From assembly GCA_005879795.1 (NCBI GenBank), contig VBKJ01000195.1, forward strand, positions 1-38,595: DNA of 38,595 nucleotides, given 5' to 3'. Shown here one piece after another: positions 3,818 through 22,856 of the stretch. Made by a program: the position numbers and the translations under genes. Position 1 is the stretch's first letter. Each line of letters opens with the position of its first letter. The notes below the pieces were generated by a model, which searched no databases, was not told the origin of the DNA, and saw nothing but the letters and a program-made list of their open reading frames with translations. This DNA comes from Deltaproteobacteria bacterium (GTDB taxonomy: Bacteria; Desulfobacterota; Binatia; DP-6).

Positions 3818-4543
3818 GTGCCGAACCCGAAGCTCTACCTGCACGAGACGATCCACATCATCGGCACCGGGTCCGAGGCCTACAAGCGGCACACCGGCAC
3901 GCGCACGCCGAGCGGGCCGGCCGGGTTCCTGGTCGGGACCTGGCAGCAGTCGGGGTCGACCGGCGACTGGCCGCGCGTCGTGAACCTCTGGGAGATGGAG
4001 GGCTGGAAGGGCTGGGAGAAGATTCTCGAGCACCAGTACGCCGGCGCGGGGCAGCCGCCGGCGCTCGCCAGGTGGTGGGCGGAGGCGGCCAGGCTCCGCT
4101 CGGGCGGCTTCGACCGCATTCTCGAGCCGGCGCCGTACTGCCCGACGCGCGCGGAGCTCATCCGCCGGCGTGTCCGCGGCCGTGCCTTCATCCAGGAGAC
4201 CGCGACCGTCGTGCCCGGGGCGGCCGATGCGTACCTCGAGGCGGTCGAGACGCGTTGGCTCCCGGTGGCGGCCCGCCGCGGCCTCACGCTCGCGGGCGCC
4301 TGGCGCACGGCGATGCGCGACACCGAGGCCGTCCTCCTCTGGTGCCTGCCGACGCTCGGCCACTACGTCCGCCACCTGAGCGACTTTGCGAGCGCGGCCG
4401 AGACCCGCGCGTGGGCGACCGAAGCGCGCCGCTGGCGCACCGACTACCGCGAGACGCTCCTCGTCCCGAGCCCGTGGTGTGTGATGCACCCGGACTGGAA
4501 GGAGGAAGGCGCCGCGGGGCGCCGCACTACGTCCGGCGCGTGA
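3818..4543 (+). CDS. NIPSNAP-like hypothetical protein
   Basis: A 241-residue protein starting with GTG. The first half (LYLHETIHIIGTGSEAYKRH, then GTWQQSGSTGDWPRVVNLWE) and the second half (RAFIQETATVVPGAADAYLE, then LAGAWRTAMRDTEAVLLWCL) look like two related alpha/beta units, as in NIPSNAP or dimeric alpha-beta barrel proteins. No catalytic residue can be assigned. The first half is distinctly Trp-rich. The gene ends 17 nt inside the end of the convergent AhpD-like selenoprotein gene. Family assignment is by overall pattern only. Confidence 0.72.
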   Translation: MPNPKLYLHETIHIIGTGSEAYKRHTGTRTPSGPAGFLVGTWQQSGSTGDWPRVVNLWEMEGWKGWEKILEHQYAGAGQPPALARWWAEAARLRSGGFDRILEPAPYCPTRAELIRRRVRGRAFIQETATVVPGAADAYLEAVETRWLPVAARRGLTLAGAWRTAMRDTEAVLLWCLPTLGHYVRHLSDFASAAETRAWATEARRWRTDYRETLLVPSPWCVMHPDWKEEGAAGRRTTSGA

Positions 4544-5120
4544 GGGGGATGCCCGACTCGGCCGCGGCGCGCGTGCCCGCGTCGAGCTGGAGCCCGAGGC
4601 CGTCGGCGAGGCGGGTCAGGTAGTTGAAGATGCCGACCACGTGCGCCACCTCGAGGCACGCGCGGTCGTCGAAGCCGAGGTCGCGCAGCGGCTGCCAGTC
4701 CTCCTCCACCATGCGCGTGGGCGTGGCGCTCAGCTTCTCCGCGACCTCGCACAGTGCGCGCTCGCGGGACGTGAGGGTGGACGCGTCGCGCCATCGCTTG
4801 GCCTTGATGGCCTCGACCAGCTCCCGCTCTCCGCCCTCGACACGCAGAAACTCTGCGTGCGACTGCGTTCAGTAGTGGCAGTCCTGCGCGGCAGAGGTGA
4901 CCGCCGCGATCAGCTCGCGCTCGCGGCGCGAGAGGCTGCCCGGCGCGAACATGATCTGCCCGAAGAGCGCGCCGAAGAGCGGCGCGTACTGCTCGTGCGC
5001 CATCACGAGGCGCGCCATCGCGGGAAGGAAGCCAAAGTCGTACGGCGAGCCGGGCGGCATGAGGGCGCGGACCTCGGCCTCGCTCGGCAGCACGACCCAC
5101 GCGTCGGGGCTCCGAGGCAT
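4527..5120 (-). CDS. AhpD-like peroxidase-related selenoprotein with an in-frame UGA read as Sec
   Basis: Read through the single UGA at 4869-4871, this frame gives one 197-residue AhpD/carboxymuconolactone-decarboxylase-family protein. Residues 1-80 include LSRRERELIAAVTSAAQD, the redox motif is C81-H-Y-U84-T-Q-S-H88, and residues 85-197 run through SRERALCEVAEKL and LGFDDRACLEVAHVVGIFNY. The UGA sits exactly where the family has the second Cys of CxxCxxxH. The downstream part keeps perfect family similarity, so it is not decayed. The ATG at 5120 has AAGGGG upstream; extending to 5246 would add an unrelated tail. Expected role: thiol/selenol peroxidase-type redox activity. Without Sec incorporation the product would be an 83-residue fragment. 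No selA, selB, selC or selD lies in the window. Confidence 0.87.
4840..4871 (-). promoter_or_regulatory. Bacterial SECIS-like hairpin directly after the UGA codon
   Basis: In the minus-strand mRNA the UGA (4871-4869) is followed after 9 nt by CACGCAG, loop AGUUU, then CUGCGUG. This is a perfect 7-bp stem, closed by a further G-U pair at its base (4840/4860). The loop begins 16 nt after the UGA, within the known 16-37 nt range for bacterial SECIS, and has a G in its first two positions as SelB binding requires. The stem lies inside the coding sequence, as in bacteria generally. Confidence 0.8.
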
Positions 5121-5275
5121 GCCGGCCCCTTCTACGGCGCCGCCACGGCCATGGCAATGCAGGCCGCGCGGATGCGGGCCGTCGACAATGCGGGCCGCGA
5201 CAGATGCGGGCCGCGCGGATTGACGCCCCGAAGGCGCCTCGGCCATACTCGCGCGCCCACCAGGAGGGACGTCCC

Positions 5276-21704: not shown

Positions 21705-22856
21705 TCAGTCCTTCCTGTACATGGTGACGACGCAGGCGCCGCCGAGTCCGACGTTGTGCTGGAGGCCGACGCGGGCGCCCTCGACCTGGCGCTTCTCGGC
21801 GATCCCGGCGAGCTGCCAGACGAGCTCGGCGCACTGCGCGAGCCCGGTCGCGCCCAGGGGATGGCCCTTGGAGAGGAGGCCGCCCGAGGGGTTCACCACC
21901 CACCTCCCGCCGTAGGTCACCTCGTCCTCGTCGATCAGCCGCCCACCCTCGCCGGGCTGGCAGAGCCCGAGCGACTCGTAGGTGATGAGCTCGTTCGTGC
22001 TGAAGCAGTCGTGCAGCTCGATCACCTGCACATCCTCGGGGCCGAGGCCCGTCTGCTCGTAGACCGCCTTGGCCGCCCGGCGCGACATGCCGACGCCGAT
22101 GAGGCCCATGGCGCCCTGGGCGAAGTCGTCGAGCAGATCGGTCGCCATCGCCTGCCCGATGATCTTGACCGGCCGGCTGTGCCCGTGCGCCCGCGCGAAA
22201 TCCTGCGAGCAGAGGATCGCCGCACCTGCGCCGTCGGAGGTGGGGCAGCACTGGAGGAGTGTCAGGGGGTCGTAGATCAGGCGCGAGGCGAGGACCTCCT
22301 CGAGCGTGCACGCCTCGCGGTACTGGGAGCGCGGGTTGTTCACGGAGTGACGGTGGTTCTTGACGCTCACCTTCGCGAACTGCTCTTTGGTCGTGCCGTA
22401 GAGCTCCATGTGGTGGCGGCCGCCGTCACCGAACATCACGGCCGCCGCGGGCGGCCGCTTCTTCGCCTCCTCGTCGTACCTCTCCTTGAGCCCCGTCAGC
22501 TGGCCGTCGAGCGGACCCTTCTCCATCTTCTCGAAGCCGAAGGCGAGCACGCACTCGTTCATGCCCGACGCGATCGCCTGGTAGCCCAGGTGGAGCGCGC
22601 TCGAGCCCGTCGAGCAGTAGCTGTGCACGTTGTAGACGGGGATGCCGCCGAGGCCCATGTAGTAGAGGGCGCGCTGCCCCTGGCAGCTCATGCCGTTCAC
22701 GTAGCCGGCGAAGGCCTGCTCGAACTTGTCCGGGGCGATGCCGGCCATGCCGAGGGCAGCGGTCACCGCCTCCTTCACCAGGTCGGTGAAGTCGAGCTCG
22801 CAGCGCTCGAACTTGGTCATGCCGACGCCGATCACGCACACGTCTCGCTTCGCCAT
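21705..22856 (-). CDS. SCP-x/lipid-transfer-type thiolase with intact catalytic Cys
   Basis: A 383-residue thiolase-fold protein (IGVGMTKFERCELDF, then SYCSTGSSALHLGYQA with nucleophile Cys81, ELHDCFSTNELI, KGHPLGATG and QHNVGLGG). All SCP-2 thiolase signatures are present, unlike the first thiolase of the window, which has Ser at this position. It should cleave 3-oxoacyl-CoAs of branched-chain fatty acids or sterol-type side chains. The ATG at 22856 has GAGGAG just upstream. It is cotranscribed with the downstream alpha/beta hydrolase. Confidence 0.92.
   Translation of the reverse strand: MAKRDVCVIGVGMTKFERCELDFTDLVKEAVTAALGMAGIAPDKFEQAFAGYVNGMSCQGQRALYYMGLGGIPVYNVHSYCSTGSSALHLGYQAIASGMNECVLAFGFEKMEKGPLDGQLTGLKERYDEEAKKRPPAAAVMFGDGGRHHMELYGTTKEQFAKVSVKNHRHSVNNPRSQYREACTLEEVLASRLIYDPLTLLQCCPTSDGAGAAILCSQDFARAHGHSRPVKIIGQAMATDLLDDFAQGAMGLIGVGMSRRAAKAVYEQTGLGPEDVQVIELHDCFSTNELITYESLGLCQPGEGGRLIDEDEVTYGGRWVVNPSGGLLSKGHPLGATGLAQCAELVWQLAGIAEKRQVEGARVGLQHNVGLGGACVVTMYRKD

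Follow-up and report, generated by a model that had tools for sequence, protein, structure and literature searches.

A probable bacterial SECIS element behind a conserved in-frame UGA in an AhpD-like peroxidase gene from Binatia

Background

An AhpD-like gene is interrupted by an in-frame UGA, with a hairpin directly downstream of it, in the window examined here, by which we mean the whole stretch of 38,595 nucleotides that was analysed (contig VBKJ01000195.1 of a deltaproteobacterial assembly placed in Binatia). The question raised by this locus is whether the UGA is a stop, or whether it is decoded as selenocysteine (Sec) with the help of the hairpin. Comparison of sequences leads us to hold, with very high confidence, that the hairpin at 4859-4841 on the minus strand acts as a bacterial SECIS element, and that Sec would be inserted at the UGA of an AhpD-like peroxidase gene. 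The answer matters for annotation, of this gene as well as of its relatives, as gene callers that are blind to selenocysteine would end the enzyme at its active site.

Results and Discussion

The gene and its in-frame UGA

The gene occupies 4527..5120 on the minus strand and has 197 codons when the UGA is read as selenocysteine, running from an ATG at 5120-5118 to a TAG stop at 4529-4527. A plausible ribosome binding site, AGAAGGGG, can be read directly from the sequence at 5126..5133 on the same strand, 5 nt before the ATG. The translation matches the TIGR01926 'peroxidase-related enzyme' model with 128.1 bits (cut-off 81.8) over residues 28-177, a range that spans the UGA, and PF02627 (CMD) with 45.7 bits, and its alignments to two solved AhpD-like structures, PDB 6k40 and 2oyo, likewise run across the UGA. 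The UGA itself (4869..4871, minus strand) is codon 84 in the motif C81-H-Y-U84-T-Q-S-H88. Residues E69, C81, Y83, U84 and H88 are invariant in an alignment of 20 sequences, which also shows conservation of the protein before and after the UGA, and they correspond to the proton relay of five residues described for AhpD and PA0269. This relay consists of Glu118, Cys130, His132, Cys133 and His137 in M. tuberculosis AhpD, with Tyr in place of His132 in PA0269 (PMC3141380). The UGA takes the second redox position of the CxxC pair, together with the E, C, Y/H and H of the relay, as is expected of an AhpD-like CxxU protein.

In the mechanism that we propose, SelB, in complex with Sec-tRNA(Sec), would recognise an 8-bp minihelix with a GUU loop, and selenocysteine would be delivered at the UGA, which lies about 17 nt upstream of the loop. 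Translation would then yield the complete enzyme, whose active site would read C-H-Y-Sec: Sec would stand where AhpD has the second Cys of its CxxC pair (Cys133 in M. tuberculosis), and Glu69, Cys81, Tyr83 and His88 would form the rest of an AhpD-type proton relay. The frame across the UGA, the conservation of the UGA, the hairpin, the constraint on the RNA, the compensatory change and the tRNA-Sec gene are directly visible in the sequences, and SelB binding, Sec insertion and the enzyme's chemistry with peroxides or disulfides are predicted.

The hairpin and its fit to the bacterial SECIS model

A first-pass annotation of this DNA had reported a perfect hairpin after the UGA, and the sequence is exactly as it claimed: CACGCAG-AGTTT-CTGCGTG at 4859-4841 on the minus strand follows the UGA (4871-4869) after a spacer of nine nt, ACGCAGTCG, with UGA, spacer and hairpin all contained in the reported range 4840-4871. 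The same annotation described a 7-bp stem and an AGUUU loop lying 16 nt after the UGA. Its stem holds, and the predicted minimum free energy (MFE) fold refines the rest, since an extra A-U pair gives 8 bp, a 3-nt GUU loop and a loop 17 nt after the UGA. Going by this predicted fold, the hairpin (4841..4859, minus strand) is best read as a 5' arm CACGCAGA at 4859-4852, a GUU loop at 4851-4849 and a 3' arm UCUGCGUG at 4848-4841, the two descriptions being one A-U pair apart, and an optional G-U pair between 4860 and 4840 would extend the stem to 9 bp. Folding of the 50 nt from the UGA, which had been suggested as a check, returns the hairpin within the predicted MFE structure at -22.0 kcal/mol, compared with -14.8 +/- 2.3 for shuffled sequences (z -3.1, from base shuffling that takes no account of coding constraint). 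An Rfam gathering scan of the window gave no match, which speaks neither for nor against the hairpin.

Published limits for bacterial SECIS elements are a loop of 3-9 nt, a stem of 4-16 bp, a distance of 16-37 nt from UGA to loop and an MFE of -7.5 or lower, with a G within the first two loop positions that is usually followed by G or U (PMC13188914). The earlier claim that the hairpin agrees with the known constraints is borne out for every one of these measures: the loop has 3 nt and the stem 8 bp, the loop reads GUU (or A-GUU-U) with G in an accepted position, the distance is 17 nt (16 in the reading with a 5-nt loop), and the energy is -22 kcal/mol over 50 nt. The spacing lies at the short end of the bacterial range. 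The hairpin resembles the consensus of the bSECISearch model (E. coli fdhF type) in its 3-nt loop with G first and then U, in an A-U closing pair that fits N1-G-U-N-N2, in its 8-bp stem, in the placement of the loop 17 nt after the UGA and in an MFE below -7.5 kcal/mol. It differs from the general bacterial consensus in that its short primary sequence is near-invariant across the subfamily (CACGCAGA-GUU-UCUGCGUG).

Selenocysteine machinery in the genome and the class

The genome of the window carries a tRNA-Sec gene (C162:23266-23356) with the anticodon TCA, and no genome searched has a higher score than its 81.4 bits. None of selA, selB and selD was found in the assembly, which comprises 280 contigs and has an estimated completeness of 99.6%. 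Two weak matches were rejected: the best SelB match falls in a 404-aa frame that we take to be EF-Tu and that aligns only with SelB residues 1 to 357, at 33% identity, and a SelD match on contig C164 belongs to a thiL-like gene beside dnaJ-dnaK. Across the 58 genomes searched, tRNA-Sec is found in 38 and selA in 42, so that the class uses selenocysteine widely, and selA is present in 37 of the 38 genomes with tRNA-Sec, the one exception being the genome of the window.

The gene neighbourhoods of relatives in the same family bear on this exception. In G005, selA-selB-selD come after a dehydrogenase gene; G002 has this dehydrogenase and a tRNA nucleotidyltransferase gene next to selA; and the coordinates in G003, G004 and G006 also make the tRNA nucleotidyltransferase a neighbour of selA. 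The tRNA nucleotidyltransferase is present in all six family relatives, among them G001, a member of the same family that has neither selA nor tRNA-Sec. In the genome of the window this gene gave no match, and the dehydrogenase gave only matches of ~34% identity. Because the neighbouring tRNA nucleotidyltransferase, present in all six family relatives, is missing too, the absence of selA, selB and selD is likely an assembly gap, with a single gap as the simplest reading, and the estimated completeness score would be blind to it.

The same absence could be taken to mean that the gene is an ancestral selenoprotein gene in a lineage that recently lost selA, selB and selD, in which the UGA terminates translation and the gene, hairpin and tRNA-Sec are relics. 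We regard this as very improbable. The failure to find the three genes in a bin of such high estimated completeness would agree with it, as would the lack of selA and tRNA-Sec in G001 of the same family and an in-frame deletion in the copy of G005, but the whole block is missing, including the tRNA nucleotidyltransferase that the Sec-less G001 has kept and the dehydrogenase, which points to an assembly gap. Furthermore, the tRNA-Sec is intact, with the top score of the genomes searched, and no decay is seen in the gene, in the hairpin or in two further AhpD-like genes with a UGA on contigs C97 and C174. We give a similarly slight chance to the idea that the species truly does without selA, selB and selD and keeps tRNA-Sec along with AhpD-like genes bearing UGA and SECIS, which would imply either a divergent Sec machinery or a trait in the course of being lost.

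Three other observations were made at these loci. In the G005 copy (L085, G005:C35:57-290) about residue 31 is joined in frame to residue 148, and the active site and SECIS are gone, through either a true deletion or a misassembly. The selD gene of the same genome (L086, 4740-5735) has an N-terminal in-frame UGA (SGUAGKLGP), and SelD is itself apparently a selenoprotein. A small release-factor-like gene with a GGQ motif (L007, 1035-1445, minus strand) lies directly downstream of tRNA-Sec.

Chance expectation and conservation in relatives

The hairpin was at first held to make a chance stop codon unlikely, which is too strong for a hairpin taken alone in GC-rich DNA. We re-coded the 18 downstream residues synonymously with the codon usage of four window genes (GC3 96%), and 5.9% of the re-codings had a stem at least as long as the observed one somewhere within the allowed zone. 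A stem of at least 8 bp at the exact site was far rarer (0.045%). The MFE is not unusual under re-coding, with 39% of trials as low, and we rejected folding energy as proof of a SECIS because synonymous re-coding gives similar energies. In this single sequence the hairpin is weak, at most moderate evidence, and it gains its significance because it is conserved across relatives. Nor is it independent of the protein evidence as a whole, as had been proposed: it lies inside a strongly conserved coding motif (HAEFLR), and the independence stands for the synonymous sites only.

We searched 148 genomes of the class for homologues with at least 55% identity. All 18 homologues other than the window gene have exactly one TGA each, at the same C-x-x-U codon, and no Cys form at that codon occurs among the class homologues at this threshold. 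Eight matches from a genome collection, in MAGs labelled Binatia, Deltaproteobacteria, Chloroflexi, Dehalococcoidia and SAR324, also have a TGA at the same codon, as seen in translation. The Binatia record L053 agrees in its motif region with L061 from G111, a member of the class, in keeping with a placement of the class in Binatia. Relatives with a clear UGA that lack a hairpin, which the first-pass annotation had named as a reason to abandon its proposal, were not encountered: a stem of 6-9 bp is found at the same place in 25 of 25 distinct downstream sequences. Synonymous re-coding predicts stems of at least 6 bp at that place in 2.1 of 25, the homologues being related and the counts therefore not independent. 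A hairpin of this form is absent from all nine Cys homologues inspected.

The constraint is most visible in codons +4 to +9, which read CAC (25/25), GCA (22, with GCG in the other 3), GAG (25/25), TTT (23/24), CTG (25/25) and CGT (24/25). Outside these codons the third positions are mixed, even at conserved residues, and three of the preferred codons are rare in the window genes (GCA 7/196, TTT 2/56, CGT 5/114). In the GCG variants a G-U pair takes the place of an A-U pair of the stem, and one sequence (L064) has CGA for CGT, with the stem reduced to 6 bp. More distant UGA paralogues carry ACGGAGA-GUU-UCUCCGU in the same register. Here a C-G pair has become G-C in five sequences, where Ala GCA is replaced by Gly GGA, an amino acid change, and Leu CTG by CTC, a silent one; the compensatory change that had been proposed as a check is thus present, with pairing kept. 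By pair counting, the C-G/G-C pair has five compensatory cells and the closing pair has one, and the covariation score of 0.117 compares with 0.048 +/- 0.010 in shuffled alignments (0/500 as high) and with at most 0.050 in all slid registers. The locus shows clearly how constraint on synonymous sites, together with compensatory change, can support a SECIS in DNA so rich in GC that folding energy is uninformative by itself.

An alternative fold that hides the stem had also been named as evidence that would count against the hairpin. Such a fold exists, as ACGCAG just after the UGA repeats the 5' arm and can pair with the 3' arm. Its predicted probability is ~0 in the window, 0.41 in the homologue L020 and 0.61 in the homologue L023, where it is favoured. 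With the UGA in the A site, the ACGCAG that this competing stem uses would be covered by the decoding ribosome.

These patterns bear on the possibility that the UGA is an ordinary stop, a pseudogene mutation or a sequencing error, and that the hairpin arose by chance because the coding DNA is rich in GC. For this single gene the odds of a stem this long in the allowed zone, about 6%, would leave room for it, but close homologues from many genomes all have the same UGA, the protein is conserved past the UGA, the synonymous sites are frozen and a compensatory change has occurred, so that a chance stop appears to be already refuted by conservation and we give this reading almost no credence. Near-cognate tRNAs are able to read through UGA in general, and the conserved hairpin might on that ground be another RNA element, such as a regulatory or readthrough signal, with the UGA read as another amino acid, but the UGA at the redox-active CxxC position, the agreement with all SECIS constraints, the presence of tRNA-Sec and the membership of the family among catalogued CxxU selenoproteins make this extremely unlikely.

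Relation to known selenoprotein families

Decoding of the UGA as Sec would agree with what is known of related proteins. An 'AhpD-like protein, TIGR01926, CxxU' is listed in a 2026 review of prokaryotic selenoproteomes (PMC13188914), and the Sargasso Sea and GOS selenoproteomes, published in 2005 and 2008, already contained CxxU selenoproteins of the AhpD-like and CMD kinds (PMC1088965, PMC2398784). The gene and hairpin of the window are well supported as a further member of this already known AhpD-like selenoprotein family, which they resemble in the model score above cut-off, in the CxxU position and in the SECIS directly after the UGA; they differ from it in lineage only, and no different architecture was seen. 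In the literature on selenocysteine in Binatota we found a mention only in a reference title. The protein is also similar to the NF041238 AhpD_rel_CFYUT (seleno)proteins as an AhpD-like CxxU protein, but it scores below the cut-off of that model (70.8 vs 175 bits), and NF041238-type genes have a candidate SECIS at ~24 nt whose loop is of the CGUGC type, unlike the hairpin described here.

Other AhpD-like UGA genes have candidate hairpins at 24 or 26 nt. Within the genome of the window, an AhpD-like gene at C97:6160-6537 (L083) has an in-frame UGA in CFYUTAAH, an NF041238-type motif, with a candidate SECIS at 24 nt, and another at C174:39-227 (L084) has an in-frame UGA in CLFUTGAH with a candidate SECIS at 17 nt. 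The window itself has another candidate for an in-frame UGA, at 21707 on the minus strand, which passed a composition screen and was rejected because it resembles the C-terminal end of a thiolase with an ordinary stop after it. Elsewhere in the window, at 1692-2332 on the plus strand, two overlapping genes resemble, by eye, a toxin-antitoxin pair of the antitoxin-MazF type.
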